A DNA stretch of 64,000 nt. Origin: Nonlabens ulvanivorans (GTDB lineage Bacteria; Bacteroidota; Bacteroidia; Flavobacteriales; Flavobacteriaceae). Positions within the stretch are counted from its first letter, which is position 1. Each line of letters opens with the position of its first letter. The translations under genes and the position numbers were made by a program. The notes under the pieces were generated by a model. The model was given only the letters and a program-made list of their open reading frames with translations, was not told where the DNA came from and ran no database searches. This document shows positions 692 through 62,349 of the stretch, in pieces. The DNA is taken from NCBI RefSeq assembly GCF_000732625.1, contig NZ_JPJI01000026.1, positions 649,024 through 713,023 of the forward strand. The letters run 5' to 3'.

Positions 692-707
692 CGCTTTCGC
701 GAAAGCG
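692..707. repeat. GCTTTCGCGAAAGC palindrome, copy 1
   Basis: Perfect 16-bp palindrome CGCTTTCGCGAAAGCG between the convergent stops of the DUF3667 gene and the ABC exporter gene. First of 15 copies in the window. Confidence 0.9.
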
Positions 708-730
708 AACTCACAACAAGGTATTTGAAA

Positions 731-2512
731 TTATGCGACCTCTTCTTGAGCAAATTGAACCTCATAAAGATTTTTGTAATAGCCATCTTCCTTTTGAAGA
801 AGTTCTAAATGCGATCCTATTTCAACAATTTGACCAGAATCCATCACAATAATCTTATCGGCTTTTTTAATAGTAGCCAGCCTATGAGCTATAACTATTG
901 AAGTACGGTTCTTTGTAATCTTTTCTGTAGCAACTTGTATTAATTGCTCACTATAACCATCTACAGAACTTGTTGCTTCATCTAATACGAGAATACTAGG
1001 ATTAGACACATATGCCCTTAAAAAGGCGATTAACTGTCGCTGACCAGAGCTTAACATCACGCCACGCTCCTTAACATTATAGTGGTATCCACCAGGTAAT
1101 GACGATATGAATTTATGGACACCTATTTCTTTAGCAGCATTTACAACGTCATCTTCTGTTATATTAATATCGTTGAGTGTAATGTTATTAAGTATCGTGT
1201 CTGCAAACAGGAAAACATCTTGAAGGACCACAGCAATTTCTGATCGCAAGCTGTATAAATCATAGTCCTTTGTATTTACACCATCAATTAAAATATCGCC
1301 AGCATCTATCTCATAAAACCTAGATAGCAAATTAATGATTGTTGATTTACCAGCACCTGTAGCCCCAACAATAGCAACAGTGTTTCCAGGATTAACTTTA
1401 AAACTAATACCTTTGAGTACAAGTTCATCATCAACATAACTAAATTTTACGTCTTCAAAAACAATTTCACCTTTAAGATGATTAGCCTGCACATTACCAG
1501 TGTTTTCAATAGTAGAGTCTGTGTCTAATATACCAAATACTCTATTTGCTGCCACCATACCCATTTGCAGCGTGTTAAACTTATCTGCGATCTGTCGTAG
1601 TGGTCTAAAGAGCATTTGAGCTAGCTGTATAAACATTACAATGGTACCAATTTGCAAACTAGCATCTTCTAATGTTTCACTAGAAACCATCAACTTAAAA
1701 CCTAAAAACACAATTAGTGCTATCGTTATACTTGAAGCCATTTCGGCAATAGGGAAGAATATAGAATTATACCACACCGTTTTAACCCATGCATTACGAT
1801 GCTTATCATTAATTTCTTTAAACTGGTCGTACTCTACTTTTTCACGATTAAAAATCTGAACGATTTTCATTCCAGTTACTCGTTCTTGAACAAAAGAATT
1901 TAAATTACTTACCTGATTACGCACATCTTCAAATGCCTTTTTCATTGCCTTTTGAAAAACCCGAGTTGCATAAAGTATAAAAGGCATTACAATTAGAGAA
2001 ACTAAAGTTAGTTGCCAGCTAGAAATACCCATAAAAACAAGAACTACAAGCATTTTTAATAAATCAGATATAATCACAAATAGTCCTTGTGAAAAAATAC
2101 TTGCTATAGTCTCTATATCACTTACAGCTCTCGTTACCAATTTACCGACAGCACTTTTATCAAAGTACTTCATTTTAAAACTGAGCATGTGACTAAATAG
2201 TTTTAACCTCAAATCTCTAATCACCTGTTGACCTAACCAGTTTGCATAAAATATAAATGAAAATTGTAATAACACCTCAAGTAACAGAGCAGCGATCATT
2301 ACACAAATCACTATATAAATACCACTTAATTCTTGTGGGATAATGTAGTCATCTATTAAAACTTTAATTAAATATGGCATTGCAATAGCAAGACCTGAAA
2401 GTAAAATAGCAGAAACAGCTACAAAATAATATGTAGTCTTATATGGTTTTGTATAAGAGATCAGCCTCTTAAACAATTTAAAGTTAAATGCATTACCTGT
2501 AGTAGATGCCAT
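731..2512 (-). CDS. ABC exporter, fused permease-ATPase (MsbA-like)
   Basis: 593 residues, the usual length of a half-transporter that works as a homodimer in the inner membrane. The first ~320 residues hold about six membrane segments (ABC transporter type 1 domain). The ATPase domain follows from ~345, with Walker A GATGAGKST near 383, signature LSSGQRQ near 487, Walker B ILVLDEATSS near 504 and the H-loop IAHRLA. These motifs look intact, so the protein should be active. The substrate cannot be read from sequence; lipid or drug export is usual for MsbA-like proteins. It is the last gene of the truA operon, starting 5 bp after the small membrane protein gene ends. Confidence 0.9.
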   Translation of the reverse strand: MASTTGNAFNFKLFKRLISYTKPYKTTYYFVAVSAILLSGLAIAMPYLIKVLIDDYIIPQELSGIYIVICVMIAALLLEVLLQFSFIFYANWLGQQVIRDLRLKLFSHMLSFKMKYFDKSAVGKLVTRAVSDIETIASIFSQGLFVIISDLLKMLVVLVFMGISSWQLTLVSLIVMPFILYATRVFQKAMKKAFEDVRNQVSNLNSFVQERVTGMKIVQIFNREKVEYDQFKEINDKHRNAWVKTVWYNSIFFPIAEMASSITIALIVFLGFKLMVSSETLEDASLQIGTIVMFIQLAQMLFRPLRQIADKFNTLQMGMVAANRVFGILDTDSTIENTGNVQANHLKGEIVFEDVKFSYVDDELVLKGISFKVNPGNTVAIVGATGAGKSTIINLLSRFYEIDAGDILIDGVNTKDYDLYSLRSEIAVVLQDVFLFADTILNNITLNDINITEDDVVNAAKEIGVHKFISSLPGGYHYNVKERGVMLSSGQRQLIAFLRAYVSNPSILVLDEATSSVDGYSEQLIQVATEKITKNRTSIVIAHRLATIKKADKIIVMDSGQIVEIGSHLELLQKEDGYYKNLYEVQFAQEEVA

Positions 2513-2517
2513 AATTA

Positions 2518-2979
2518 TTATAATAAATGTGCAATACTAGATTGCAATTCTTTTTCTTTTTGTGTACCGATTACATATTGACGATCAGCCATTTTGATAT
2601 GCAATCCTTTTGAGCCAGTTACATTGTAAACGGTTCCATAATTAGTCCATAATCTTATTCCCCATCCACCTACAAAACCATAGTCAATCACTTGTGCTTC
2701 TGACAATTCAGACCATTTAAACACCTTTTTAATAAAAGGAATATATCTAACGGTAATTTCATCGTCCGTTATTGTCGTTGTCAAGGTGAGTGATAAAAAT
2801 AAAACCAAAATAAAACCTATAATAACACTTGGCATAACTTTATCAATAGTGAGTTGACCTAGAAGATCTTCATCCCAATTAAATTGGAACGTTATGACTA
2901 CTACTAAACCTGCAATTATCAGCCACAACCACCACTGCGTAAAACGTTGCTTTTCTTGAAATATAATTTTACCTTTCAT
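2518..2979 (-). CDS. Small two-helix membrane protein, PH-like
   Basis: 153 residues. Two hydrophobic segments near residues 15-33 and 45-67 are followed by a soluble part of mostly beta character (ITVRYIPFIKKVFKWSEL and a later GSKGLHIK stretch). That plan, a helical hairpin plus a small beta domain, resembles bacterial PH-like membrane proteins. Function unknown. Its start overlaps the end of truA by 4 bp and its stop is 5 bp before the ABC exporter start, so the three genes are surely cotranscribed. It might be an accessory subunit of the exporter, but only position supports this. Confidence 0.75.
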   Translation of the reverse strand: MKGKIIFQEKQRFTQWWLWLIIAGLVVVITFQFNWDEDLLGQLTIDKVMPSVIIGFILVLFLSLTLTTTITDDEITVRYIPFIKKVFKWSELSEAQVIDYGFVGGWGIRLWTNYGTVYNVTGSKGLHIKMADRQYVIGTQKEKELQSSIAHLL

Positions 2980-3731
2980 AAAAACAGCTCCTCTGGATAA
3001 TGAATTTTAGTAAGAAACAATCCTCCTGCAGGAGCACTTGCGCCAGCATTACTACGATCTTTAGAAGCAATTATTTCGCGTAAATCTTCAATTGTTTTTT
3101 TACCATACCCAATGTCTAATAAAGTTCCTACTACTGCCCTAACCATATTACGTAAAAATCTATTTGCAGTGATATGAAAAATCACTTTATGATCTTTAAA
3201 TTCAAAATAGGCCTCTGTTAGATCACAGATATAAGTCTTTACATCAGTATTAGACCTTGAGAAACATTCAAAATCTTTATACTCTGGTAAAATGGCTGCA
3301 GCTTCCTGCATTAATTTAAAATCAGGTTTTCTAAACAGGACATAAGCCTGCATTACCTGAAAAGGATCCGGTCTTAATAAAAAATGATATTCATAGGATC
3401 TTTTATAAGCATGGAATCGCGCATGTGCATTTTCTACAACAGGTTTCACTTCGTACACAGCAATATCTTTAGGCAACCACCTATTTAATCTATAAACTAG
3501 ATGTTCTAGATCTATTTCTCCTTTATAATCAAAATGGGCTACCATAAATGCCGCGTGCACACCAGCATCAGTCCTACCAGCACCTTGAACCGCTATTTTT
3601 TCTCTCAGCATTTTATTCAATCCATCTTCTAAGACTTCTTGCACAGAAATACTTTGTGGTTGTCGTTGCCATCCATGATAAGCTGTCCCATCATAAGCGA
3701 GCTCAATAAAATAACGTCTTTTCTCTTGCAT
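2976..3731 (-). CDS. truA: tRNA pseudouridine(38-40) synthase TruA
   Basis: TruA isomerises uridines 38-40 in the anticodon arm of many tRNAs. The catalytic signature GAGRTDAGVHA is seen near residue 50, containing the nucleophilic Asp, and the N-terminus (YFIELAYDGTAYHGWQRQ) is canonical. I chose ATG at 3731 rather than GTG at 3737: the GTG overlaps the last base of a TAnnTTTG promoter element (3737-3744), and the ATG lies 5 nt past that element, giving a 251-residue protein. First gene of a three-gene operon with the small membrane protein and the ABC exporter. Confidence 0.95.
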   Translation of the reverse strand: MQEKRRYFIELAYDGTAYHGWQRQPQSISVQEVLEDGLNKMLREKIAVQGAGRTDAGVHAAFMVAHFDYKGEIDLEHLVYRLNRWLPKDIAVYEVKPVVENAHARFHAYKRSYEYHFLLRPDPFQVMQAYVLFRKPDFKLMQEAAAILPEYKDFECFSRSNTDVKTYICDLTEAYFEFKDHKVIFHITANRFLRNMVRAVVGTLLDIGYGKKTIEDLREIIASKDRSNAGASAPAGGLFLTKIHYPEELFL

Positions 3732-3736
3732 CAACA

Positions 3737-3744
3737 CAAAGATA
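3737..3744 (-). promoter_or_regulatory. -7 element of truA (leaderless arrangement)
   Basis: TATCTTTG on the minus strand, an exact match to TAnnTTTG, ends 5 nt before the chosen ATG of truA. No clear -33 TTG at the usual distance. Confidence 0.6.
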
Positions 3745-3847
3745 AGTGGATATGTCGAATAATGAACCAGTTTTACAACTAGTAAAGACCTAAGAATGAC
3801 AGGAAGTATAAACCATTACAAAACTCTATCAACACATATTCTCACAC

Positions 3848-3855
3848 TATCTTTG
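3848..3855 (+). promoter_or_regulatory. -7 element of the YfcE-like gene (leaderless arrangement)
   Basis: TATCTTTG on the plus strand ends 4 nt before ATG 3860. It is divergent to the identical element of truA; the two boxes lie about 100 bp apart. Confidence 0.6.
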
Positions 3856-3859
3856 AATT

Positions 3860-4348
3860 ATGAAAATATTACTTCTTTCAGATACACATAGTCATATTGA
3901 TGATTTCATCATTAAGTATGTAAAACAAGCAGATGAGGTCTGGCACGCTGGCGACATCGGTGATTTAAAGGTCACTGATCAGATTGCAGCAATAAAACCG
4001 CTACGTGCGGTATGGGGAAATATTGATGATGATAAAGCAAGAATGCAGTTCCCAGAACATAATCGCTTTAAATGTGAAGGTATGGACGTATGGATTACCC
4101 ACATAGGTGGTTATCCTGGCAGGTACAACCAGCGAGTAAGACCAGAGATTTATAATAATCCACCAGATCTATTTATTTGTGGCCACTCACACATTCTTAA
4201 AGTAATCAACGATAAAAAAATTAATTGTCTACATATCAATCCCGGAGCTATCGGCATACATGGATTTCATAAGAAACGCACCATGTTGCGGTTTGAAATT
4301 AATGAGGGAAAGATTTCAAATTTAGAATTAATAGAGAAAGATCGTTAA
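3860..4348 (+). CDS. YfcE/MJ0936-type metallophosphoesterase
   Basis: 162 residues, the length of the small calcineurin-like phosphodiesterase family. The metal-binding motifs appear in order: LLSDTHSH at the N-terminus, HAGDIGD near 30, GNIDD near 53, a His near 82 (WITHIGG) and CGHSHILK near 111. All ligand positions are present, so an active two-metal phosphodiesterase is expected; the natural substrate is not known for most members. Monocistronic, with its own promoter just upstream of the ATG and a hairpin terminator at 4401-4433. Confidence 0.88.
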   Translation: MKILLLSDTHSHIDDFIIKYVKQADEVWHAGDIGDLKVTDQIAAIKPLRAVWGNIDDDKARMQFPEHNRFKCEGMDVWITHIGGYPGRYNQRVRPEIYNNPPDLFICGHSHILKVINDKKINCLHINPGAIGIHGFHKKRTMLRFEINEGKISNLELIEKDR

Positions 4349-4378
4349 AATTGAAAGAGTACAGATGGTAATAATGAC

Positions 4379-4392
4379 GCTTTCGCGAAAGC
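4379..4392. repeat. GCTTTCGCGAAAGC palindrome, copy 2
   Basis: Exact 14-bp core between the convergent YfcE-like and DUF4293 genes, next to their shared terminator. Confidence 0.9.
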
Positions 4393-4400
4393 ATAAAAAC

Positions 4401-4433: not shown

Positions 4434-4458
4434 CACTAAATAAACTAAGATACAGTGT

Positions 4459-12426: not shown

Positions 12427-12468
12427 TGTTAACGAAGATTAAAAGATTCATATTGGTAATATGATTTT

Positions 12469-12482
12469 GCTTTCGCGAAAGC
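12469..12482. repeat. GCTTTCGCGAAAGC palindrome, copy 3
   Basis: Exact core between the terminator and the stop of the T9SS cargo gene, in a convergent intergenic region. Confidence 0.9.
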
Positions 12483-12497
12483 GAAATACAAACTAAT

Positions 12498-17932: not shown

Positions 17933-18004
17933 TTAGTATAGAATCGTAAGTTTGTAGATAGTTTTGCCCCATAAATTTTATTGGGTAAAAAGCTTTTATA
18001 TTAT

Positions 18005-18018
18005 GCTTTCGCGAAAGC
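18005..18018. repeat. GCTTTCGCGAAAGC palindrome, copy 4
   Basis: Exact core in the folE-cysS gap, about 50 bp ahead of the cysS start; one of the few copies upstream of a gene. Confidence 0.9.
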
Positions 18019-18068
18019 GTATTTTTAAAAATCAATCACCTACAACTACTTCAAATAATATATAAATC

Positions 18069-22166: not shown

Positions 22167-22184
22167 ACGCTTTCGCGAAAGCGT
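22167..22184. repeat. GCTTTCGCGAAAGC palindrome, copy 5
   Basis: Perfect 18-bp version ACGCTTTCGCGAAAGCGT, just past the 3' end of the 886-residue T9SS cargo gene. Confidence 0.92.
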
Positions 22185-29042: not shown

Positions 29043-29060
29043 ACGCTTTCGCGAAAGCGT
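29043..29060. repeat. GCTTTCGCGAAAGC palindrome, copy 6
   Basis: Perfect 18-bp version ACGCTTTCGCGAAAGCGT between the mdh terminator and the start region of the 202-residue protein. Confidence 0.92.
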
Positions 29061-33515: not shown

Positions 33516-34055
33516 ATGAAATACTTTGTTTTTATATTTTCTTTTTTCACGGCAATTAGTGCTACTCAAGCTCAAGAAATAGCTTTTTCTAAAATAGATA
33601 AAAGCCCACTAGACGTGGTTATTCACAGAGACAACAATAATCAAGCTATCGCTCGCGTGATTTACAGTAGGCCTGCAAAAAGAGACCGCACTATTTTTGG
33701 AGAATTGGTAAAATACGGAGAAGTATGGCGTACAGGCGCAAATGAAGCTACAGAAATAGATTTCTTTTATGATGTAACCATAAACGGAAATTTAGTAAAA
33801 GCTGGCGCATACTCTATATACACAATCCCTGGCGAAGATAAATGGACCTTCATTCTTAACTCACAGACTAATCAATGGGGAACAAAACACGATCCTGAAA
33901 AAGATGTTTTAAAAGTAACGATGGATAGCATGCCGTCACCGCAAACCATAGAAGAATTCTCAATCAGTTTTGTTGAAGATCCAGATGGACTTATTTTGTT
34001 TATGGGATGGGATGACACGCTAGTGAACTTACCTATACAAGTTGCCCAACTTTAA
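33516..34055 (+). CDS. DUF2911 family exported protein
   Basis: 179 residues with signal peptide MKYFVFIFSFFTAISATQAQ. The DUF2911 pattern is clear: VIYSRPAKRDRTIFGELVKY, GEVWRTGANEATEIDFFYDV, LVKAGAYSIYTIPGEDKWTF and LNSQTNQWGTKHDPEKDVLK. A beta-rich periplasmic or surface protein of unknown function, common in Bacteroidetes. Its stop overlaps the stop of convergent queE by 4 bp, with no terminator between. Confidence 0.88.
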   Translation: MKYFVFIFSFFTAISATQAQEIAFSKIDKSPLDVVIHRDNNNQAIARVIYSRPAKRDRTIFGELVKYGEVWRTGANEATEIDFFYDVTINGNLVKAGAYSIYTIPGEDKWTFILNSQTNQWGTKHDPEKDVLKVTMDSMPSPQTIEEFSISFVEDPDGLILFMGWDDTLVNLPIQVAQL

Positions 34056-34684
34056 GGTATATTTAAATACTTGTGTGTTTGTAAAGAGACGTGCCATTCT
34101 GGATTATCCATTACAAACTCTGTAATTAAAGGAATCATCTTTTCACGTACAGACCATTCTGGTTGCAAATAAAGCTTACAGTTTGAGGAAACTTTTTCGG
34201 CTTCCACTTTCGCGAAAGCGAAATCATGCTTGTTAAATATTATCACCTTAAGTTCGTGAGCTGCCTCATAGACTTCAGGCAATGGCATTTTCATTTTTTT
34301 AGGAGATAGACAAATCCAATCCCAAGAACCTGAAAGCGGATAAGCACCGCTGGTCTCAATATGAACCTGCATTCCTTCACTTTTAAGCCCTGTAGTTAAG
34401 GGCCCCATATCCCATGTTAAAGGTTCTCCACCAGTAACAACGATAGTCTTACTGTATTTTGCCGCATTAGCAACAATAGCATCAACCGCTGTAGGTGGAT
34501 GTTTTTCTGGGTCCCAGCTTTCCTTCACATCACACCAGTGACAACCTACATCACAACCACCTACTCTTATGAAGTATGCTGCTTTTCCTGTATGACTACC
34601 TTCACCTTGAATTGTATAAAACTCTTCCATAAGCGGAAGCATTTCACCCTTTTCAACTGCTTGAGAAATTGATTTTTCTAACAT
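34052..34684 (-). CDS. queE: 7-carboxy-7-deazaguanine synthase QueE
   Basis: 210 residues. This radical-SAM enzyme makes 7-carboxy-7-deazaguanine from carboxytetrahydropterin for queuosine; its pathway begins with FolE, encoded at 17234. The cluster motif is CDVGCHWCD near residue 45 (CxxxCxxC), and VVTGGEPL is the SAM-binding GGE segment. The palindrome copy 7 lies inside the gene and encodes FAFAKV near residue 155. ATG 34684 lies 4 nt past TATTTTTG. No queC/queD next to it. Confidence 0.92.
   Translation of the reverse strand: MLEKSISQAVEKGEMLPLMEEFYTIQGEGSHTGKAAYFIRVGGCDVGCHWCDVKESWDPEKHPPTAVDAIVANAAKYSKTIVVTGGEPLTWDMGPLTTGLKSEGMQVHIETSGAYPLSGSWDWICLSPKKMKMPLPEVYEAAHELKVIIFNKHDFAFAKVEAEKVSSNCKLYLQPEWSVREKMIPLITEFVMDNPEWHVSLQTHKYLNIP
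34205..34220. repeat. GCTTTCGCGAAAGC palindrome, copy 7 (inside queE)
   Basis: CACTTTCGCGAAAGCG, one mismatch from the full 16-mer. Read in the queE frame it gives FAFAKV, frame GCT-TTC-GCG-AAA. Confidence 0.88.
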
Positions 34685-40547: not shown

Positions 40548-40964
40548 ATGAAATTAACACCTTTCCACCTTGCTATTCCTGTTAAGGAAATCACCACTAC
40601 CCGTGCATTTTATCGCGATACTTTAGGTTGTGAAGAAGGACGTAGTTCAGACCATTGGGTAGATTTTAATTTCTTCGGTCATCAACTCGTGATTCATATT
40701 TCTGACAATGCTCCTGTAAATGCAACAAATGCCGTAGATGGAAAAGCTGTGCCAGTTCCTCATTTTGGTGTGGTGCTAGAGTGGGATGTTTTTCACGCTT
40801 TCGCGAAAGCGGTTCAAGAAAAAGGCATCGAGTTCATCATAGAACCATACATAAGATTTGAAGGATTGCCAGGTGAGCAAGCCACTATGTTCTTTAAAGA
40901 CCCTAGTGGCAATGCATTAGAATTCAAAGCGTTCAAGGATATGAGTCAGGTATTTGCTACTTAG
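40548..40964 (+). CDS. VOC superfamily protein (glyoxalase/dioxygenase-like)
   Basis: 138 residues, one pair of beta-alpha-beta-beta-beta modules. Likely metal ligands: His in FHLAIPVKE, His in [11 protein letters not shown] and Glu in [13 protein letters not shown]. Family members include glyoxalase I, extradiol dioxygenases and fosfomycin-resistance enzymes; nothing here picks one. The palindrome copy 8 lies inside the gene and encodes HAFAKAVQ near residue 84. The stop overlaps the convergent amidohydrolase stop by 8 bp. Confidence 0.85.
40796..40811. repeat. GCTTTCGCGAAAGC palindrome, copy 8 (inside VOC gene)
   Basis: Perfect 16-mer; in the gene frame it is read GCT-TTC-GCG-AAA-GCG, giving AFAKA. 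Confidence 0.92.
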
Positions 40965-42678: not shown

Positions 42679-42694
42679 CACTTTCGCGAAAGCG
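42679..42694. repeat. GCTTTCGCGAAAGC palindrome, copy 9
   Basis: CACTTTCGCGAAAGCG, one mismatch from the 16-mer and identical to copy 7, between terminator and stop of the barrel protein gene. Confidence 0.88.
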
Positions 42695-44453: not shown

Positions 44454-47400
44454 TTAATTTCCTGCAGGAACTACTGATGAATTTGTTTTGGCAGCGTTAG
44501 TTTTTATAGCGTCTAATTCTGCTTGAGCGCTAGCGACTACTTCTGGGTATTGAGCAAAATTACCAACGACATATTCTAGTATAGTAGTTGCATTTAATGT
44601 TTGTCCTTGTGCGTTATAACATTTACCCATAATTACTAAACCTTTTGAGGTCCATAATTTATAACCAGCATAGTTTTTAGTAAGACTTTGCACAGTAGCG
44701 ATGGCAGCGTCATAATTACTTGCTTTATGTTCAAAATAAGCTTTAAAGTAAGTAGCCTCTGCCGCTAGTGTACCACTTGCATTCAATCTTACCGCTTCAT
44801 AAGCTGTTTTTGCAGCAGCTTCATTTCCTGTTTTCCAACTTGAGCGAGCAATAATCACGTTTGCATCTGATCTTACATTATCACTTATAGTAACGTCTGA
44901 CAACACCTTATTTGCATAACTCACAGACTGGTTATAATTTTCTTGCTCATAATATGCTTTCATCAGGTTAGATTGTGCATAAATCACATTTTGAGGAAAA
45001 TCTGCTAGTTGTTCTAATTGAGTGAGCACTGGAATCGCTTTTGCATAAGCTTTATCGCCCAAGTAAATCTCACTTAAACGTGCCAAAGCTTGTTCTGTAA
45101 ACTCACTGCGTTCTTTATTAATCACATATTCATAACTAGCGATAGACTCTTGTTTTTTATCTTGAGAAAACAATGCTTGTGCTAGATAAAAGTGTGCTTG
45201 TAATGCGTGTTTACCATTAGGATATTCTGCTAGATATTTTCTCATAGAACGTGTTGTTCCAGACATATCATTTTGCAGATAAGGCTGCTCTGCACTTTCA
45301 TAAGCCGTATCATCCAACTCAGAATCGCTCACATCTACAAAGTCCAGTGTGCGCACCCATGCAGCATAGTCATTAGTACGGTTTTGATCCACATAAATCA
45401 ATCGTGCACTACTTACCGCTTCATTTGCTTGTGGTGTACCTGGATATTTTGCTACAACATCTTTAAACACTACTAATGCATCATCTAGTTTTGAATCGTT
45501 ATAAAGCTGTAACCCTTTACGCATCATCGCTTGCGAGGTGTAACTACTTTGTGGAAATTCATTAATTAATCGGTCATAGGTCTGTATACCTTTATCAACA
45601 TTATTTGTATTGATGTATGTATTTCCTAATTCATACAACACGTCATCGCGATAAGCAGATTTATTGAATTTATTTAAAAAACCGTTAAGATCTTCAATCT
45701 TACGATCATTCTTACCTACAAATCCATAGGAAATAGCTTTTTGAAATGCCGCATAATCTGCATTAAAACCATTCATTGAAATGGATTTATTATAAGCCTC
45801 CATTGCTGGCCAGTATTGCTTACTTACAAAGTTTGCATCACCTATACGCAGGTAAGCATCATTCAATCTAGCTGGCTCATTATCAATACCAGATTGCTTT
45901 GTATAAGCCGTGAATGTATTGATAGCATTAGTATAATCTTTAAGTTTAAACTGCGTGTACGCTAGATCATAATTTAATAAATTATCTTCTTCAATACTAT
46001 TATTCATTTTCTTCACAGCATTAAAAGCGGTAAGTGCTGCCGGAAAATCATTGAGTTCATAATAACTTTCTGCCTTCCAAAAAGTTGCTTTCTTTTTTAA
46101 ATCTGCAGACTGCGCATATTGAATGGTTTTATTAAGGTTTTCAATAGATTTTTTATAATCTCCTGATTTAAATTGACTCAAACCTTCATAAAGCGCCACT
46201 TTACCATATACATCTTCATTACCAGCAATACGTCCATCTTCCATAAGGCGCAAAGCCTCTGTATAGTTTTTTGAAGAGAAGTATGAATCGATTAAGAATT
46301 CATTCATCTCTGCATTTTTATCCGTGTCTGGATATTTTTCTAGATAAGCCAGTATTACAGCAGGCACACTATCATATGGATTGCCGTATTCATAACTGAT
46401 CTTAGCATAGTTGTAACTCGCATCTTGCTGGATCTGAGCGTCAAAATCCATCTCACTCGCTTTCTTAAAAGCATTCAATGCATCTTCGCTTTTATTAAGT
46501 TTAATATAGCTTTGCGCTAGATGGTAGTATGCATTTTGTGCCGTTTTATTCTCACCATCTACGATTTTATTAAAAGTCTCTACAGCCTTTTCATAATCGC
46601 CTTGTTTATAATAAGCATATCCTAGCTGATAGTAATCGTTATTATTCAACCTACCGCGCACACCTTTATATTCTTGTAAATAAGGTAGTGCTTGATCATA
46701 TTTACCTTGATTAAAAAGACTTTGTCCTATAATTCTATTTAGTTCAGACTGTTCTTGCTTTGTAGATTTAGGCATTTGCTCGGTCGCTAGAGCTATTGCT
46801 TTATCAAAATTCCCCAACTTATAATTTAAATCTGCCTGATAGTAAGAAAGCTTTTCATCCTCATCAGGTGATTCTCCAGCTTCATCAAATAAATCACTAG
46901 CCTCTTGATAATCGTCGCCTTCATAAGCGATGTATCCTAAATAATATTTAGCCTGCGAGCCATATTCTGGATCATCACTAACTCGATTTAGATAAGGTTT
47001 TGCCTCTTCATACTTTTTGCTTTGTACAAGAGTATATCCAGTATTGAAATTGTATCTGTTTTTTTGCTTTCGCGAAAGCGTGCTCTCATCAACCTTTTCA
47101 TACCATTTTGCTGCCTGGTTGTATTTACCATTGTCAAAATAGAAATCTGCCACATCGATAAAAGCCGTATTGCGTTTTGTAGAAGTAGGGTACTCTTCAA
47201 CGAAAGACTCCATAAGCGCGTCTGCATTGCGCTGGTTCAAACGCACGGCACAATTTGCGATGTAATATGCCGCATTACCTTGAATGGCATCATCTTCTAC
47301 CTGATTTTTTACTTTTTCAAATAAACGTTGCGCTGCAATGTATTGCTGCTCTTGATATAAATCAATCGCCTGATTATAAGTGCGCAGGTCATCTGTAAAT

Positions 47401-47474
47401 ATTTTGGACTGTTGTGCGTTAACCTCTATAAAAGAAGTAGCAGCCAGCAACAGAGTAAGCACGATTTTTTTCAT
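44454..47474 (-). CDS. Large exported TPR protein
   Basis: 1006 residues with signal peptide MKKIVLTLLLAATSFIEVNA. Nearly the whole mature chain is TPR-type helical repeats (ADFYFDNGKYNQAAKWYEKV, NRIIGQSLFNQGKYDQALPY, YAYYKQGDYEKAVETFNKIV and many more), roughly two dozen units. Such solenoids bind partner proteins; here probably in the periplasm. The palindrome copy 10 lies inside, encoding TLSRKQ near residue 135. First gene of an operon with the beta-barrel protein. Confidence 0.88.
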   Translation of the reverse strand: MKKIVLTLLLAATSFIEVNAQQSKIFTDDLRTYNQAIDLYQEQQYIAAQRLFEKVKNQVEDDAIQGNAAYYIANCAVRLNQRNADALMESFVEEYPTSTKRNTAFIDVADFYFDNGKYNQAAKWYEKVDESTLSRKQKNRYNFNTGYTLVQSKKYEEAKPYLNRVSDDPEYGSQAKYYLGYIAYEGDDYQEASDLFDEAGESPDEDEKLSYYQADLNYKLGNFDKAIALATEQMPKSTKQEQSELNRIIGQSLFNQGKYDQALPYLQEYKGVRGRLNNNDYYQLGYAYYKQGDYEKAVETFNKIVDGENKTAQNAYYHLAQSYIKLNKSEDALNAFKKASEMDFDAQIQQDASYNYAKISYEYGNPYDSVPAVILAYLEKYPDTDKNAEMNEFLIDSYFSSKNYTEALRLMEDGRIAGNEDVYGKVALYEGLSQFKSGDYKKSIENLNKTIQYAQSADLKKKATFWKAESYYELNDFPAALTAFNAVKKMNNSIEEDNLLNYDLAYTQFKLKDYTNAINTFTAYTKQSGIDNEPARLNDAYLRIGDANFVSKQYWPAMEAYNKSISMNGFNADYAAFQKAISYGFVGKNDRKIEDLNGFLNKFNKSAYRDDVLYELGNTYINTNNVDKGIQTYDRLINEFPQSSYTSQAMMRKGLQLYNDSKLDDALVVFKDVVAKYPGTPQANEAVSSARLIYVDQNRTNDYAAWVRTLDFVDVSDSELDDTAYESAEQPYLQNDMSGTTRSMRKYLAEYPNGKHALQAHFYLAQALFSQDKKQESIASYEYVINKERSEFTEQALARLSEIYLGDKAYAKAIPVLTQLEQLADFPQNVIYAQSNLMKAYYEQENYNQSVSYANKVLSDVTISDNVRSDANVIIARSSWKTGNEAAAKTAYEAVRLNASGTLAAEATYFKAYFEHKASNYDAAIATVQSLTKNYAGYKLWTSKGLVIMGKCYNAQGQTLNATTILEYVVGNFAQYPEVVASAQAELDAIKTNAAKTNSSVVPAGN
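47066..47079. repeat. GCTTTCGCGAAAGC palindrome, copy 10 (inside TPR gene)
   Basis: Exact core; in the gene frame it is read ACG-CTT-TCG-CGA-AAG, giving TLSRK, a different frame from copies 7, 8 and 13. Confidence 0.92.
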
Positions 47475-50370: not shown

Positions 50371-51216
50371 CTATAAGTCTGGATGACCTATACGATGACC
50401 TTCAAAACCAGTCAAGTAATCATTCATGCCGTGATTAAAAACCATGTATTTATCATATAAATTGCGCCAACCTTTCACATAGCCTTTACGCCACAAGAAA
50501 AATACATATTTAAACTGCTTCATTTGTGCTGTCCATAGATTTTCTCTAGCCGCTAGTGCTCCACGTGCATAAATCACTCGATTATTTACTGGTTCATCAC
50601 TGCTGGTATGAGCATCATGTATAACAATGGTTTGTGGTACAAATTGAACTCTTAGATTCTTATCAATAGTATCAGTCAAGAATACATAATTCTCACTATC
50701 TCCAAATTGAGCACCTAATCCAAATCTTGTGTCAAATTGAATTGAACTCTCATGAATAGATTCTCTTTTAAAAGTTATTTCTGGAGAAAGCACATTTTCT
50801 ACTTGCTTACGCGAAAGCGTTTCTTCAACAACAGCATAGTTTCTAAAAAGTAAATCTTTCCTTATCGCTGTCCGAAAAGTAATTATCTCGTGTTCACAAT
50901 GGTTATGAGCTGCAATAACTTTGTCAACAGCATTATCCATAAGAACACAGTCATCATCTAATATCCAACAAATAGCAGTAGAAGCTTTTTCAATAGCAAG
51001 GTTGCGACTGCGAGAAAGACCAAAACTGTGATCATTAATAACCAGAATGTTGTCGTATTCTGAGCTAAGGTTTGCGGTTTTAGACTGATTAACAACAATA
51101 AGGTGATACTTAATCTCACTTACCTTACATTGAAACATAGCCTCAAGAAAAGACAGATCGCTCCTATTCATCGTTGCGATAAGGATTTGTAAATCTTGAT
51201 TAGTGTATGAATTCAA
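50371..51216 (-). CDS. Family 2-type glycosyltransferase
   Basis: 281 residues from a TTG start at 51216 (TTG-AAT-TCA), which lies 16 nt past an exact TAnnTTTG. GT-A features: LQILIATMNRSDLSFLEAM, SFGLSRSRNLAIEKAS, and the metal site WILDDDCVLMD near residue 97. The C-terminal part contains FFLWRKGYVKGWRNLYDKY, seen in capsule transferases. The palindrome copy 11 lies inside it. Cotranscribed with the FdtA-like gene. Confidence 0.82.
   Translation of the reverse strand: MNSYTNQDLQILIATMNRSDLSFLEAMFQCKVSEIKYHLIVVNQSKTANLSSEYDNILVINDHSFGLSRSRNLAIEKASTAICWILDDDCVLMDNAVDKVIAAHNHCEHEIITFRTAIRKDLLFRNYAVVEETLSRKQVENVLSPEITFKRESIHESSIQFDTRFGLGAQFGDSENYVFLTDTIDKNLRVQFVPQTIVIHDAHTSSDEPVNNRVIYARGALAARENLWTAQMKQFKYVFFLWRKGYVKGWRNLYDKYMVFNHGMNDYLTGFEGHRIGHPDL
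50805..50818. repeat. GCTTTCGCGAAAGC palindrome, copy 11 (variant, inside glycosyltransferase)
   Basis: GCTTACGCGAAAGC, one mismatch from the core. In the gene frame it gives TLSRKQ, the same frame and peptide as copy 10. Confidence 0.8.
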
Positions 51217-51246: not shown

Positions 51247-52386
51247 ATGCGCATTTTGCTCATAGGCGAGTACAGTGGTTTTCACAATTCTCTTAAATAT
51301 GGACTTCAACAATTAGGTCACGAGGTAACCCTTGTGGGCGATGGTGATGGTTTTAAAAAATTTCCTGTAGACATAGAAGTAGGTAGTGATTACTTTAGAA
51401 GAGACTGGTTAAGAGAAAAAGTTAAAGTAGCCTGGTGGAAACTCACCGGTCATAATCTAGAGGATAATATCCGTTTAGCACGCTTCCGCGAAAGCGAGCA
51501 TCTTATGAAAGGTTATGATATCGTTCAATTTATCAATTCAAACGCGCTGGGTTGTGAACCACCGATCGAGTGGCAAATGATTGATTATCTTCTTAAAAAT
51601 AATAACAAAGCTTTTTTAGTAGCTTGTGGAGATGACTATCCATATGCACAGTTTCTAACCGAAAAACATCAAGGCTACAGTATACTGACACCATATCTAG
51701 AAGACACTTCTCTAAAAAACCAATATCTCCATACTTTTAAATACCTTAAAAAAGGATATCGAGAGAATTATGATCGATTATTAAGCAAGTGCAGAGCCAT
51801 CATACCATCTCATACTGATTTTCAAATGGCATTAAGTGACGAGTCTAAATGTGCTCATATGATTCCCAGTGCAGTGATTATGGAGCAACTTGAATTGCAT
51901 CAAAATCATATCGCGCAACCTATAGAAATTTTTATGGGAATTAATAGAGGTAACTATTTTAAAAAAGGGATTCCTTATTTTGAAAAAGCTCTTGATATTT
52001 TAAAATCTAAATATGGCCAAAAAGTAAACATCACTATTGCCGAAAATTTGCCTTATGATGAATATATCAAATCCTATCGAAAAAGTCACATCTTACTAGA
52101 TCAAGCCCTTAGTTATGATCAAGGTTATAATGCACTAGAAGCTATGGCACAAGGTAAAGTTGTTTTTGCAGGAGCTGGGACGCCATTTTTAAAGGCTTAT
52201 GAACTTGAAAAGGCTCCACTTATAGATGCAAAACCAGATGTTAATTATCTAGTGCAAGAACTATCTAACCTCATCGAACATCCTGATGAAATTTTTAAAT
52301 TAGGTAAAGAAGCTAGAGAATTTGTAGAGAGACATCATAATGCTATTGACACTGCTAGAAAGTATCAGGCTTTATATATCGCTTAA
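51247..52386 (+). CDS. Glycosyltransferase, GT-B fold (family 4-like)
   Basis: 379 residues. N-terminal MRILLIGEYSGFHNSLKYGL fits a GT-B acceptor domain. The C-terminal donor domain has GINRGNYFKKGIPYFEKAL and DQGYNALEAMAQGKVVFAG near 295, equivalent to the EX7E donor motif with the first Glu altered (Asp-Gln-Gly-Tyr). No signal peptide or membrane segment. Last gene of the glycan group. The palindrome copy 12 lies at its residue ~79 and encodes RFRESE. Confidence 0.85.
   Translation: MRILLIGEYSGFHNSLKYGLQQLGHEVTLVGDGDGFKKFPVDIEVGSDYFRRDWLREKVKVAWWKLTGHNLEDNIRLARFRESEHLMKGYDIVQFINSNALGCEPPIEWQMIDYLLKNNNKAFLVACGDDYPYAQFLTEKHQGYSILTPYLEDTSLKNQYLHTFKYLKKGYRENYDRLLSKCRAIIPSHTDFQMALSDESKCAHMIPSAVIMEQLELHQNHIAQPIEIFMGINRGNYFKKGIPYFEKALDILKSKYGQKVNITIAENLPYDEYIKSYRKSHILLDQALSYDQGYNALEAMAQGKVVFAGAGTPFLKAYELEKAPLIDAKPDVNYLVQELSNLIEHPDEIFKLGKEAREFVERHHNAIDTARKYQALYIA
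51481..51496. repeat. GCTTTCGCGAAAGC palindrome, copy 12 (variant, inside GT-B gene)
   Basis: CGCTTCCGCGAAAGCG, one mismatch from the palindrome. In the gene frame it gives RFRES, the third reading frame of the element. Confidence 0.85.
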
Positions 52387-54248: not shown

Positions 54249-55358
54249 CTAATCAAGTATCAGCTCTTTAACCTCTCCACGAGAAGAACTACTATCACTT
54301 CCTATAATCAAATTACGTTTAAAATTTAAGAAACGATAGGTATATTGTGAGGATATATTGCCGGCCATAAAGTTGATTATTTCATCAAAGGATAGTGTGG
54401 CCGTATCCCAGATAAATTGTGTTTGAGAATTCCACTTAAGATCAGACAACTGCTTATAAGTAGCTACCTTATCACAAAGACCTATTTGAAGCTTATTATC
54501 ATTGGTAACCAAAACTCTATATGAGTTACTTGTACTTACAACGCTTTCATTTTCAATAGATTTTGTAGCAATAATACCTTTTAAAGCCAAATCTACCAAT
54601 GCTTTTTCAATTTTAGACTTCTTAAAATGTTTATTGTAAAACAGCCCCATGGCACCATAAAAACGCTCTAAGTATTTTCTATCCTTTACAGTACTTTCGC
54701 CTTTAAAATGTATGACTTTAAGCTTGCCTAAATAATAATTCTGATAGCCATGTTGTAACGCAGTGTAACTTAGATCAATGTCCTCACCATACATAAAATA
54801 CATTGGGTCAAAACCACCTAATTCTTCAAAAACCAACTTTTTACAAACCATCATTGCTCCTACTAAGACTTCAACCTCACCATTATCATCTTTTTGTAAA
54901 TGGCTAGCATAATATTTAGAATCATTACCTAAAATCTTTTGTCTAGCTATTTGTGGAGTTGGGACGTTGCGCTTGCTTTCTGGCAGGTAGGTTCCGGTAC
55001 CATCTATAAGCTGTGTAGTAGTAAATGCTATTTGTGGATTCGCTTTCGCGAAAGCGAGAACCTCATCAAACACAGTTTCTCCAACAACCGTATCGGGATT
55101 AAGAATGCATAGGTAATCACCTTGCGCGTGTTGCACTCCAATATTATTACCTTTTGAAAACCCTAGATTTTCATGATTTGTAATCAACTTAACTTGTGGA
55201 AAATTGTGTTGCAACATCTCAACACTGTGATCTGTAGAGTCGTTATCAACCACAATTACCTCTGCATCAATATTGTTGACCGCTTTTAGAACACTATATA
55301 AACACTGCTCTAGAAAAGCTGCAGCATTATAATTAAGTATGATAATGGATAAATCCAA
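54249..55358 (-). CDS. Family 2 glycosyltransferase, rhamnosyltransferase-like
   Basis: 369 residues. GT-A domain: LSIIILNYNAAAFLEQCLYS, VIVVDNDSTDHSVEML, FSKGNNIGVQ and the donor site LCILNPDTVV; then FMYGEDIDLSYTALQHGY, the acceptor segment of this subgroup. The last ~100 residues are a small beta-rich domain. It starts 2 bp after recR ends, so the two are one operon, an arrangement without obvious meaning. The palindrome copy 13 encodes LAFAKANP near residue 105. Confidence 0.9.
   Translation of the reverse strand: MDLSIIILNYNAAAFLEQCLYSVLKAVNNIDAEVIVVDNDSTDHSVEMLQHNFPQVKLITNHENLGFSKGNNIGVQHAQGDYLCILNPDTVVGETVFDEVLAFAKANPQIAFTTTQLIDGTGTYLPESKRNVPTPQIARQKILGNDSKYYASHLQKDDNGEVEVLVGAMMVCKKLVFEELGGFDPMYFMYGEDIDLSYTALQHGYQNYYLGKLKVIHFKGESTVKDRKYLERFYGAMGLFYNKHFKKSKIEKALVDLALKGIIATKSIENESVVSTSNSYRVLVTNDNKLQIGLCDKVATYKQLSDLKWNSQTQFIWDTATLSFDEIINFMAGNISSQYTYRFLNFKRNLIIGSDSSSSRGEVKELILD
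55041..55056. repeat. GCTTTCGCGAAAGC palindrome, copy 13 (inside glycosyltransferase)
   Basis: Perfect 16-mer; in the gene frame it gives AFAKA, the same as copy 8. Confidence 0.92.
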
Positions 55359-58200: not shown

Positions 58201-58231
58201 TGATTTTATAAAATAAGCGGTCGTAATTATT

Positions 58232-59239: not shown

Positions 59240-59314
59240 ATTTATCTTTGTAAGGGTCGCAAGATAAGACCTACTCTACATAAGGTACTAGAAGTTTTCC
59301 TTAATTTAATATGC

Positions 59315-59920
59315 ATGCATAACAATTTGTTCCCATCAGATTTTCCGGATATACCAGATGCTCAAGTGCATTATGATGGTAACTTTTACGCTTTCGCGGA
59401 AGCGCAACAACTACTATCCAAACTACTTAACGAAACACCATGGAGACAAAATAAGATTACGGTTTATGGTAAAGAACACGACGAACCTAGACTAACGCAA
59501 CTCTATGGCGATCCAGGAATAAAATATGGATACAGCAATATCTCTTATGATGCCTTACCATGGACTACCACATTACAAAAAATCAAAGAAGATGTTGAAA
59601 AAGCTACAGGCGCAACTTTTAATATATGTCTAATCAACAGGTATAGAGATGGACAAGACTCCAACGGCTGGCACGCAGATAATGAAAAAGAACTAGGCAT
59701 TAATCCCATAATTGCTTCTATAAGTCTAGGTCAAGAAAGGTTTTTTCATTTAAAACATCATCATAATAAAGACTGGAAATTTAAATTCCCACTACAACAT
59801 GGTAGCTTATTAGTTATGGCAGGTCAAACACAACATACCTATAAACATCAAATTGCCAAAACGAAAAGACTTATTGATGAACGCATCAACCTTACTTTTA
59901 GAAAGATCGTTCAACCATAG
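59315..59920 (+). CDS. AlkB-like 2-oxoglutarate/iron dioxygenase
   Basis: 201 residues. The HxD of the iron site lies in WHADNEKELG near 122, the distal His in QHTYKHQIAK, and Arg in INLTFR binds 2-oxoglutarate, so the centre is complete. ALKBH2/3-like bacterial members repair N-alkylated DNA bases. The palindrome copy 14 lies near residue 27 and encodes YAFAEA. ATG chosen at 59315; the overlapping ATG at 59311 runs into a stop. Confidence 0.92.
   Translation: MHNNLFPSDFPDIPDAQVHYDGNFYAFAEAQQLLSKLLNETPWRQNKITVYGKEHDEPRLTQLYGDPGIKYGYSNISYDALPWTTTLQKIKEDVEKATGATFNICLINRYRDGQDSNGWHADNEKELGINPIIASISLGQERFFHLKHHHNKDWKFKFPLQHGSLLVMAGQTQHTYKHQIAKTKRLIDERINLTFRKIVQP
59389..59404. repeat. GCTTTCGCGAAAGC palindrome, copy 14 (variant, inside alkB-like gene)
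   Basis: CGCTTTCGCGGAAGCG, one mismatch. It is the reverse complement of the variant seen in copies 12 and 15. Encodes YAFAEA. Confidence 0.85.
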
Positions 59921-59992
59921 TTTAGATAAGTATTAACGTTAAGAAAAATCTAGTGATTGTAAATTAGTAATCTAGTTTACGACAACTTACTT

Positions 59993-60289
59993 ATGGCAAG
60001 AGCAAAAGATATTTTAAAAGACCTAGATGAAAGAGCAATAGACCGTATTATAGAAATGGGCTGGGAAGATCGTACACCTTTTGATGCTATCGAGGCACAG
60101 TTTGGTGTTACAGAAAGTCAAGTCATTAAAATCATGCGCAACCAGATGAAGGAAAGTAGTTTCCGTATGTGGCGAGCACGAGTGCAAGGTCGATCTACAA
60201 AACATGTCGCACAACGTGATCCAGAAATGGACCGTTTCCGCTGCTCTAGACAACGTCATATATCAAATAATAAAGTATCAAAACGATAA
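59993..60289 (+). CDS. TIGR03643 family protein
   Basis: 98 residues, basic. The middle part (RIIEMGWEDRTPFDAIEAQF) and a helix-turn-helix-like GVTESQVIKIMRNQM precede RMWRARVQGRSTKHVAQR, all matching the TIGR03643 pattern as I know it. Function unknown; nucleic-acid binding is plausible from the basic HTH-like part. Own hairpin terminator at 60313-60343. Confidence 0.85.
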   Translation: MARAKDILKDLDERAIDRIIEMGWEDRTPFDAIEAQFGVTESQVIKIMRNQMKESSFRMWRARVQGRSTKHVAQRDPEMDRFRCSRQRHISNNKVSKR

Positions 60290-60312
60290 TTATAATTCTT
60301 TTATAAGGAGCT

Positions 60313-60343
60313 AAAGGAGCAAACTAAGTTTGCTCCTTTTTTT
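60313..60343 (+). terminator. Terminator of the TIGR03643 gene
   Basis: A perfect 13-bp stem AAAGGAGCAAACT/AGTTTGCTCCTTT and a T run, 24 bp past the stop. Confidence 0.88.
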
Positions 60344-60388
60344 ATGGCTATTATTTTCAATTAGATTGTTTTCTTAAAAATCATCAAA

Positions 60389-60405
60389 TAATTTGTAACA
60401 AATTA
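60389..60405. promoter_or_regulatory. 17-bp palindrome upstream of the sdpR-like gene
   Basis: TAATTTGT-A-ACAAATTA, perfect around a central A. It overlaps the start of a near -7 element (TAGTTTTA, 60404-60411). A candidate second operator site. Confidence 0.5.
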
Positions 60406-60420
60406 GTTTTATTACATACT

Positions 60421-60442
60421 TATTTAGAAATTTGTCTAAATA
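60421..60442. promoter_or_regulatory. 22-bp operator-like inverted repeat before sdpR
   Basis: TATTTAGA-N6-TCTAAATA, perfect 8-bp arms, ending 9 nt before the GTG start. It contains GAAATTTG (60427-60434), one base from the -7 consensus. Binding here would block transcription, as expected for an autorepressor. Confidence 0.6.
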
Positions 60443-60451
60443 CCTAATTAA

Positions 60452-60706
60452 GTGAATAGCCTTTTTAAAGCCTTAAATGATCATACCAGAAGAGCGATTC
60501 TTGAGCTTCTCAAAGAAAACGACCTCAACGCTGGAGAAATAGCAAATCATTTTGATATTTCTAAACCCAGTATATCGCATCATCTCGATTTATTAAAGCA
60601 AGCTGGTTTAGTAACGGCTATAAAAAATGGGCAGTACATCACCTACTCTATTAACACTATAGTTATGGATGAGTTAGTTCAATGGATTATGAAACTTAAA
60701 GACTAA
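60452..60706 (+). CDS. ArsR-family autorepressor, SdpR type
   Basis: 84 residues from a GTG start. A winged helix: FKALNDHTRRAILELLKEND, recognition region GEIANHFDISKPSISHHLDL, wing ITYSINTIV. The length and motifs match SdpR, which represses its own operon with sdpI in Bacillus and is released when SdpI binds it. No metal-binding Cys pair, so not a metal sensor. Two palindromes lie just upstream. The SdpI-like gene follows 5 bp later. Confidence 0.88.
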   Translation: MNSLFKALNDHTRRAILELLKENDLNAGEIANHFDISKPSISHHLDLLKQAGLVTAIKNGQYITYSINTIVMDELVQWIMKLKD

Positions 60707-60711
60707 AAAAA

Positions 60712-61365
60712 ATGAGAAATTCATCTTTACAAGAAACGGTTATTATCATCCTTACACTGATTCCCTTTATCTATCTAGGACTGGTTTATAGCGATTTACC
60801 AGACACCTTACCTATGCATTGGAATGCACAAGGTGAAGTGGACCGTATGGGTAACAAAAGAGAACTATGGTTAATTCCTATCTTACTTACTGGTTTGATG
60901 TATGTTATTTTAAAATATGTACCTAAACTAGATCCAAAAGGTCAAATTAAAAAAATGGGTAATAAATTTGGCCATTTAAGAGTTGCTATAACTATATTTC
61001 AGACAGCACTTGCGGTAGGTATTATATATATGTCTACCACTTATAAGGACGGTGATACCAGTTCACCTACGTGGATTTTTATGCTCATCGGACTATTATT
61101 TATAGTTTTAGGGAATTACATGCCAGCTATGAAACCTAACTATTTTGTAGGCATAAGAACACCATGGACACTTGAAAATGAGAATGTATGGCGCAAGACA
61201 CATCGTGTAGGTGCTATTTTATTTATTACATCTGGCATTATAATACTGATCACGTCATTGCTATTTGATATGCAAATCGCTTTCTATGCAACCATTGGCA
61301 CAGCATTTGCCATAGTAGCATGGACCTTTATTTATAGTTACACACTTTATAAAAAACTACAGTAA
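60712..61365 (+). CDS. SdpI-like membrane protein (DUF1648)
   Basis: 217 residues with about six membrane segments. The DUF1648 signature LPMHWNAQGEVDRMGNKREL is near residue 30 and the SdpI segment KPNYFVGIRTPWTLENENVW near 140. In Bacillus subtilis SdpI gives immunity to the SdpC toxin and sequesters SdpR at the membrane. No toxin gene is near here. Second gene of the operon; the hydrolase gene starts 2 bp after it. Confidence 0.9.
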   Translation: MRNSSLQETVIIILTLIPFIYLGLVYSDLPDTLPMHWNAQGEVDRMGNKRELWLIPILLTGLMYVILKYVPKLDPKGQIKKMGNKFGHLRVAITIFQTALAVGIIYMSTTYKDGDTSSPTWIFMLIGLLFIVLGNYMPAMKPNYFVGIRTPWTLENENVWRKTHRVGAILFITSGIIILITSLLFDMQIAFYATIGTAFAIVAWTFIYSYTLYKKLQ

Positions 61366-61367
61366 TC

Positions 61368-62318
61368 ATGAAAAAAATAATCATTTTATTCGCACTACTT
61401 CCTCTAATGGGTTTTTCACAAAACCTATTTGATAAAGGCAATAAAGAAGTAGAAAAAGATCCTACAGAATTAAACATTACAGAAAATGTTCAAGGAACAC
61501 TATGGTTACCTGATGGAGAGTCTAATCCACCTCTAGTGATTATGTTAACTGGTAGTGGTCCTAATGATAGAGATGGTAATAGTGTAATGACTAAAAACGA
61601 TAGTCATAAACAACTTGCACTAGCCTTGAAAAAAGAAGGTATTGCTACCTATCGATATGACAAGCGAGTAGTAACACAAATGAAAAAGAAAAAAGTAGAT
61701 CCTAATACTAGCTTTGACGATTTTATCACTGATGCACGTGATGTCGTTGCATATTTTGAGAAAGACAAACGCTTTTCAAAGATTTACATCGCCGGTCATA
61801 GTCAAGGTTCATTAGTAGGCATGCTAGCCATTAATAAAAATATTGACGGATTTATATCACTAGCTGGTGCTGGAGAAGTTATTGATAACGTCATTGTCTC
61901 TCAAATAGCAGCACAAAGTCCCGGACTGGACACCATCGCGAGAACTACTTTTGATAAAATGCGTGCTCAAGAAGAAATTGTAGAAGATGTAAATCCTTAT
62001 TTGATGCAATTACAAGGTCCGCAAATGCAACCTTTTATGGAGTCCTGGATGGCGTATGATCCAGCAATAGAAATCGCAAAATTAAAAACACCTGTTTTGA
62101 TTATTAATGGAGATCGCGATTTTCAAGTATCTATAGAACAGGCAAAAATGCTACATACTGCAGCACCTTCTAGTCAATTAGAAATCATAGAAGGACTGAA
62201 CCATGTACTTAAAAAAGTAGGTAGCGATGATATAGAAGCTGCCAAAAGTTATACCGATGTAAATTTCCCAATTCATCCTGTTTTAATAGAAAAAATGGTC
62301 GCCTTTATAAAGGAATAA
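61368..62318 (+). CDS. Exported alpha/beta hydrolase
   Basis: 316 residues with signal peptide (MKKIIILFALLPLMGFSQ). Oxyanion segment MLTGSGPNDRDGNSVM, nucleophile elbow YIAGHSQGSLVGM (Ser near 142), Asp in LIINGDRDFQV near 245 and His in EGLNHVLKK near 282: full triad. This type is often found with SdpI in Flavobacteria-like operons as far as I can tell from position; substrate unknown. Third gene of the sdpR-sdpI operon, periplasmic or surface. Confidence 0.85.
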   Translation: MKKIIILFALLPLMGFSQNLFDKGNKEVEKDPTELNITENVQGTLWLPDGESNPPLVIMLTGSGPNDRDGNSVMTKNDSHKQLALALKKEGIATYRYDKRVVTQMKKKKVDPNTSFDDFITDARDVVAYFEKDKRFSKIYIAGHSQGSLVGMLAINKNIDGFISLAGAGEVIDNVIVSQIAAQSPGLDTIARTTFDKMRAQEEIVEDVNPYLMQLQGPQMQPFMESWMAYDPAIEIAKLKTPVLIINGDRDFQVSIEQAKMLHTAAPSSQLEIIEGLNHVLKKVGSDDIEAAKSYTDVNFPIHPVLIEKMVAFIKE

Positions 62319-62331
62319 TTTCTTAATAATT

Positions 62332-62349
62332 ACGCTTCCGCGAAAGCGT
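62332..62349. repeat. GCTTTCGCGAAAGC palindrome, copy 15 (variant)
   Basis: ACGCTTCCGCGAAAGCGT, one mismatch from the perfect 18-mer; between the hydrolase stop and the hairpin before the DUF819 gene. Confidence 0.85.

Follow-up and report, generated by a model that had tools for sequence, protein, structure and literature searches.

A 16-bp palindrome, CGCTTTCGCGAAAGCG, recurs every few kilobases along a 64,000-nucleotide stretch of the Nonlabens ulvanivorans genome (contig NZ_JPJI01000026.1, positions 649,024 to 713,023; hereafter the window), and the same repeat extends through the rest of that genome and through the genus. Some force maintains this one long palindrome with high fidelity every few kilobases, with redundancy at short range. 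By analogy with the DNA uptake sequences (DUS) and uptake signal sequences (USS) of other bacteria, we give an even chance to the reading that the palindrome may be a signal for self-recognition, like a DNA uptake sequence, that is spread by uptake bias. A fuller proposal, to which we lean a little less than evenly, is that of a palindromic uptake or self-recognition signal of Bacteroidota, with a symmetric footprint of ~50 bp, kept in some marine Flavobacteriaceae and colonising temperate phages, which would imply a sequence-specific DNA receptor unlike the Neisseria type IV pilin ComP.

All 15 palindrome copies listed in the initial annotation of the window were recovered, each at most 2 bp from where it had been placed, and their division into eight intergenic and seven intragenic copies was borne out by the positions of open reading frames (ORFs). 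The claim of an exact 14-mer held for nine of them, while the other six carry mismatches; in 100 dinucleotide shuffles of the window the exact 14-mer never appeared. Against the 16-mer, five sites have no mismatch, nine have one and one has two, and no further position in the window lies within three mismatches. The excess continues beyond the window, so that the first of the two refuting outcomes named initially does not occur: the 3.21-Mb genome contains 566 exact 14-mers and 436 exact 16-mers, and none of the reversed 14-mer used as a control. For detailed work we collected the sites with at most three mismatches to the 16-mer across 720 kb of the window's contig (n = 162; 93, 51, 13 and 5 sites with 0, 1, 2 and 3 mismatches, respectively). 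Six of eight altered palindromes searched in the same way gave at most 10 matches; the other two gave 154 and 147, because they are only two positions off the motif and find the same sites again.

The unit is the palindrome centred in a symmetric compositional zone of ~50 bp. At 282 sites with at most two mismatches, from our own contig and the Nonlabens genomes G010 and G004, A (and C) is enriched on both 3' sides and G is depleted on both 3' sides to ~25 bp from the centre, with the strongest bias at +11 and +17. This bias is present at coding and intergenic sites, on either side when read along the coding strand, and it recurs in two genomes of other genera, with equal strength at 27 sites of G227 and more weakly at 67 sites of G211. 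From +10 to +30 the arms pair no more often than their composition would give, save for a small excess at +21 (there is also an excess at +9), and therefore a hairpin is not the conserved feature.

Sites are more evenly spread than chance allows. The mean spacing in the 720 kb is ~4.4 kb (density ~0.23/kb), and the coefficient of variation (CV) of the 161 gaps is 0.62. Only three of these gaps are shorter than 1 kb, compared with ~33 expected under an exponential null, 35 under a null preserving coding and intergenic placement, and 23 under a null with a single site per gene or gap (lowest value 10 in 2000 simulations). Pair counts in the first, second and third kilobases are 3, 15 and 28, against about 39, 36 and 36; past 3 kb they range from 24 to 50, scattered around 34-37 with a maximum at 4-5 kb. 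Sites exclude one another below 2-3 kb. The same tendency is seen in G227, where two of 31 gaps are shorter than 1 kb (8.5 expected), and the variance-to-mean ratio of counts in 20-kb intervals is 0.34 on our own contig, 0.50 in G010 and G004 pooled and 0.62 in G211. A different word, TTCYGAAG or TTTCYGAAGC, is over-represented, on both strands, in some 20 of the 235 Flavobacteriaceae genera sampled but not in the carriers of the palindrome (for the 8-10-mer in G084, 239 + 262 versus 9 + 24; for TTCCGAAG in G033, 181 versus 5.8 expected). In G122 (L272-L281) and G033 (L282-L291), TTTCYGAAGC has no extended flanks and is spaced nearly at random (CV 1.00 and 0.92), which rules it out as a dialect of the palindrome; from this near-random spacing it also follows that even spacing is not a consequence of gene layout.

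Placement relative to genes was scored with ORFs defined by a length rule rather than by a gene finder. Of the 162 sites, 98 fall in ORFs (0.15/kb) and 64 in the gaps between them, where the density is 0.92/kb in codirectional, 0.94/kb in convergent and 0.70/kb in divergent gaps; sites are 5.7 times denser between genes than within them, and no preference for convergent gaps was found among them. Coding sites are read as AFAKA-type peptides in 49 cases, LSRK in 25 and RFRES in 24. Along the closed genomes G010 and G211, sampled in 25 and 20 stretches of 20 kb, respectively, no positional gradient was detected, each stretch holding one to six sites. The longest stretch of the contig without a site spans 27 kb and carries genes for type I restriction-modification, SIR2/STAND proteins, a reverse transcriptase and a large serine recombinase (L013:8010-19584 and L014:952-11815); the evidence on islands comes from this one gap, of three gaps of about 12 kb or more.

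The repeat is kept among relatives, so that the second refuting outcome named initially does not occur either. Of 47 sites that could be aligned with G003 (89% DNA identity), 46 are present there as well; in the reverse direction 44 of the 48 G003 sites could be aligned and all 44 have a counterpart. The 45 sites aligned over their full length have an identity of 0.972, compared with 0.897 for their flanks. The more distant G010 and G004 share nine of 11 and nine of nine alignable sites (nine of 15 and eight of 14 in reverse); of the six unmatched sites on each side, two of G010 have three mismatches and one of G004 has two, and these may be chance matches. Places that can be aligned are biased towards conserved genes. 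The site between folE and cysS is found in all 22 Nonlabens folE loci examined (L182-L203), amid widely differing intergenic DNA, a count that leaves out the 23rd Nonlabens genome, G014, where only a paralogue-level match was obtained. It is also present in G227, and absent from the folE loci of G211, G072, G097 and G307. The FolE protein of the window finds its best matches in Nonlabens species, with 97% identity to that of N. ulvanivorans JCM 19298, which places the window in this genus.

Among 41 homologue alignments of site-bearing proteins, the site is missing in 20 (13 proteins). Fifteen of these 20 (nine of the 13 proteins, with six of the 15 alignments from a single protein) have no gap at the site, and in the remaining five the gaps are all of a size other than that of the palindrome, which points to copies that arise mostly by base change, so far as a small set with some weak alignments can indicate. 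The earlier idea of a self-spreading micro-repeat is thereby disfavoured in its insertional form. An insertion element similar to repetitive extragenic palindromic (REP) sequences or miniature inverted-repeat transposable elements (MITEs), or else a transcription terminator, would share with our repeat its palindromic nature and its many positions just past gene ends; an RNA stem-loop of a 24-nt consensus is possible at -9.3 kcal/mol, and gaps are found near the site in five of 20 alignments, a higher rate than the 13 of 180 seen in control windows. The flanks, however, are unpaired beyond composition, there is no insertion signature, most sites lie in ORFs, and codirectional, convergent and divergent gaps are similarly populated, so that we consider explanations of this kind very improbable.

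All 23 Nonlabens genomes searched carry the palindrome, with 288-857 copies each. In a sample of 299 Flavobacteriaceae genomes, 61 have any copy, and beside the three Nonlabens in it only G211 (408 copies) and G227 (857), from two other genera, have more than 19; the 56 further genomes hold stray copies, 1-19 each, with 16-19 in G072, G097 and G307. In a sample of the order, the 16-mer is found in eight of 196 genomes, above two copies only in that of N. ulvanivorans. A tree of folE and cysS (104 loci) joins G211 to G227 with support of 0.93 and both to Nonlabens weakly (0.234), and therefore a single origin of the carriers is not shown. All 39 stray copies inspected, from 17 genomes, lie inside ORFs of at least 80 amino acids (aa), and they are clustered, with a recurrent spacing of 933 bp in G108, G122, G099 and G236. 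At loci L041, L042, L045, L046 and L048, the palindrome is in genes for RND/outer-membrane efflux, CusB-like proteins and heavy-metal P-type ATPases. The recurrent spacing had suggested a conserved centromere of the parS kind, an idea rejected on finding efflux and metal-transport genes there, one of them near-identical to its counterpart in carriers. Eight proteins were typed, from five of 20 fetched stray loci (five of the eight hold sites): seven are efflux or metal-transport proteins and one is an AraC-type regulator. Among them is an outer-membrane efflux protein with 94-100% identity across G108, G122 (Altibacter lentus), G236, five Nonlabens and G227; the remaining 21 of the 30 genomes have a less similar protein or none. 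On these sequence comparisons, the stray clusters are best read as DNA that would have been transferred from carriers, a direction that we infer.

Phages carry the palindrome as well. Thirty viral contigs contain the 16-mer, in 41 stretches altogether, and 11 of these contigs have at least two exact sites; one of the 11 (2841145138), with transporter and restriction genes, looks like host DNA, and several are near-identical copies of one phage. Single matches on G+C-rich viral contigs may be chance. Ten proteins were examined from six phage loci, and seven match portal, terminase, head, sheath or tape-measure families; the other three comprise a weak tape-measure match, a member of a family of unknown function and one without a match. 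Two site-bearing phage contigs bear an integrase. In one phage group the terminase is 54.5% identical to that of Peternella_1, whose record annotates a transposase and Mu-like genes; Peternella_1, from a Winogradskyella host, has no sites. Of the three sites of L320, two in one case and one in the other recur at the matching place in relatives at 74% terminase identity. The related phages L320, L321 and L322, with G+C contents of 0.46, 0.39 and 0.45, have some site positions in common and may infect different carrier genera. The Nonlabens phage isolates P12024S and P12024L (35.7 kb each) have no sites at up to three mismatches, compared with ~8 predicted from the density in the host; a single place in P12024S matches with four. 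Neither has an annotated integrase, both encode their own ERF- and YqaJ-type recombination genes, and since they are related to each other they count as one observation. The Haemophilus influenzae phage HP1 is said to carry uptake signal sequences, a statement for which our literature search found no support.

Two known kinds of genome-wide motif invite comparison at this point. Chi sites also occur once per few kilobases and on phages, and a Chi-like mark of self for recombination and nuclease enzymes could be read both ways as a palindrome, an end-processing enzyme pausing there and leaving a T/G-rich 3' tail. Such a mark would suit the ~4.4-kb spacing, the sites on phage contigs and the composition 5' of the core, where either strand is rich in T and G and poor in C. 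Yet Chi motifs are asymmetric words of 5-8 nt, unlike this long palindrome with its two-sided bias, and P12024S and P12024L lack the site, a point weakened by the recombination genes that they themselves encode; we hold this explanation to be improbable. HIP1 (GCGATCGC) of cyanobacteria is, like our repeat, a palindrome found genome-wide within and between genes, and a repeat of its type could be kept through an orphan DNA methyltransferase or a restriction system. HIP1 is an octamer, whereas here a 16-bp core lies in a ~50-bp zone with short-range exclusion, and no methylase is conserved in the two families searched (C5 and N6/N4 types, PF00145 and PF01555): PF00145 is absent from nine of 20 Nonlabens and from G211, PF01555 from eight of 20 and from G227, and both are absent from G009, G010 and G022. 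A type I methylase does lie in an island of the N. ulvanivorans genome. On avoidance by phages, as expected of a restriction target, the observations point both ways: 11 of the 30 viral contigs (one of them host-like) have at least two exact sites, and the two related Nonlabens phages have none. The methylation target proposed initially is disfavoured on these two families, and upkeep of the HIP1 kind seems to us quite unlikely.

Of the roles named in the initial annotation, a DNA uptake signal would fit the genome pattern best. Like the DUS and USS of Neisseriaceae and Pasteurellaceae, the palindrome is a single short motif strongly over-represented genome-wide in hundreds of near-perfect copies, genic and intergenic, more evenly spaced than random, enriched between genes, with semi-conserved flanks, scarce in coding sequence and missing from the one new island of 27 kb. 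It belongs to another phylum, and its density is below that of USS, whose average spacing is ~1 kb (PMC7811141). Uptake sequences are described as fairly evenly distributed and as scarce in newly acquired segments and in coding sequence (PMC7811141), as drive by biased uptake would predict, and the extended flanks recall the extended uptake motif of H. influenzae (PMC1939737). Within the family, R. columbina transforms preferentially with its own DNA (PMC7965970). Under the uptake reading, a competence protein located at the cell surface or in the periplasm would bind the core as a symmetric complex, site-bearing fragments would be preferentially taken up and then recombined, and sites would accumulate by drive; a second site near an existing one would gain little, giving the exclusion zone. 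Uptake-biased transformation with recombination could in this way produce the fidelity, the even spacing, the intergenic bias and the lag in new islands. ComEC, the sole competence gene searched, was found in all 22 carriers and all eight other genomes searched, and for that reason it is only permissive.

Several observations weigh against an uptake signal. The motif is a palindrome with symmetric, two-sided flanks, whereas established uptake motifs are asymmetric and, as described in PMC1939737, not palindromes. The flanks at 17-25 bp are compositionally biased, yet their individual bases are not conserved (identity 0.867, versus 0.898 at 51-150 bp), and the under-representation in new islands was seen in one site-free island. 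The preference of R. columbina was tied to no motif, and the top words of a k-mer table in that paper are A/T-rich only (PMC7965970). Karlin et al. (quoted in PMC1939737) took even spacing to point to a function in replication, repair or compaction. We met no competence or uptake experiment in Nonlabens in the literature, and no DNA receptor or carrier-specific gene was identified, a whole-genome gene comparison not having been made. The sharing of 46 of 47 sites and the presence on phages fit a functional protein site equally well. The open-licence PMC literature, in its available portions, yielded no report of an uptake signal in Flavobacteriaceae or Bacteroidetes, and the motif letters were in none of its papers; TTTCGCGAAA together with 'palindrome' led to one listed paper. 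A term search of PMC4390886 turned up neither Bacteroidetes nor this motif.

The main rival is a site bound in the cell, one per few kilobases, by a chromosome-organising, segregation or nucleoid protein other than ParB, which we regard as unlikely though worth serious consideration. A symmetric core with bilateral flanks suggests a dimer or larger complex, and arms unpaired beyond composition suggest that double-stranded DNA is probably what is read; such a binder would account for fidelity and uniformity, and strong conservation, the lack of gradient in the two sampled chromosomes and the palindrome on integrase-bearing phage contigs agree with it. No candidate organising protein was found, however, the origin-to-terminus gradient is likewise missing, and short-range exclusion would have no obvious reason. 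We know of no chromosome-organising protein for such a palindrome. The parS consensus is TGTTTCACGTGAAACA, present at few sites, and parS and Noc-binding sites (NBS) hold TTTC...GAAA, as does our palindrome, which differs from them in the distance of the half-sites from the centre, in its hundreds of sites and in the lack of a gradient. The palindrome as parS was rejected for its other sequence and its hundreds of sites without gradient. All 30 genomes searched, with or without the palindrome, encode one ParB of ~300 aa, and three carriers and one non-carrier have extra copies of ~600 aa; a ParB paralogue as the binder was dismissed, carriers having no second ParB of ~300 aa among these genomes. 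In G010, classical parS lies at ~961.6 kb (one mismatch) and 963.5 kb (exact). This pair (L237:1579-3487) is ~1.4 Mb from parB, at 2.38 Mb. ParB and classical parS look separate from the palindrome. The nucleoid or segregation role suggested at the outset keeps its standing as an organising-protein site, and is disfavoured as an additional binder of ParB or Noc type.

Within the window, the sites are given by position without strand. Three intergenic sites lie between convergent genes: site 1 (692..707, exact 16-mer), 17 bp past ORF 72-674, and sites 2 (4378..4393) and 3 (12468..12483), each with one mismatch. The folE-cysS intergenic site discussed above is site 4 (18004..18019, one mismatch). 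Sites 5 (22168..22183) and 6 (29044..29059) are exact and intergenic, as are, with one mismatch each, site 9 (42679..42694) and site 15 (62333..62348), the latter 14 bp past ORF 61368-62318. Among the genic copies, site 7 (34205..34220, one mismatch) is within a radical-SAM ORF (34052-34684, minus strand), site 8 (40796..40811, exact) within a glyoxalase-family ORF (40548-40964, plus) and site 10 (47065..47080, one mismatch) within the ORF of a TPR protein (44454-47474, minus). Three glycosyltransferase ORFs hold site 11 (50804..50819, two mismatches; ORF 50371-51216, minus), the sole alignable site without a G003 counterpart, site 12 (51481..51496, one mismatch; ORF 51247-52386, plus) and site 13 (55041..55056, exact; ORF 54249-55358, minus). 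Site 14 (59389..59404, one mismatch) is within a 2OG-Fe(II) oxygenase ORF (59315-59920, plus).

Uptake sequences have been discussed for Pasteurellaceae and Neisseriaceae, and the reason for their existence is debated (PMC7811141, PMC1939737). If the palindrome is truly an uptake signal, it would provide an independent test of the molecular-drive idea in another phylum, an assay in marine bacteria and a lead to a new DNA receptor. It would also serve as a marker of gene flow out of Nonlabens, as with the efflux and metal-transport genes, and of links between phages and their hosts. Should it prove to be a chromosome-organising site instead, these genomes would contain an architectural element that is both abundant and evenly spaced.

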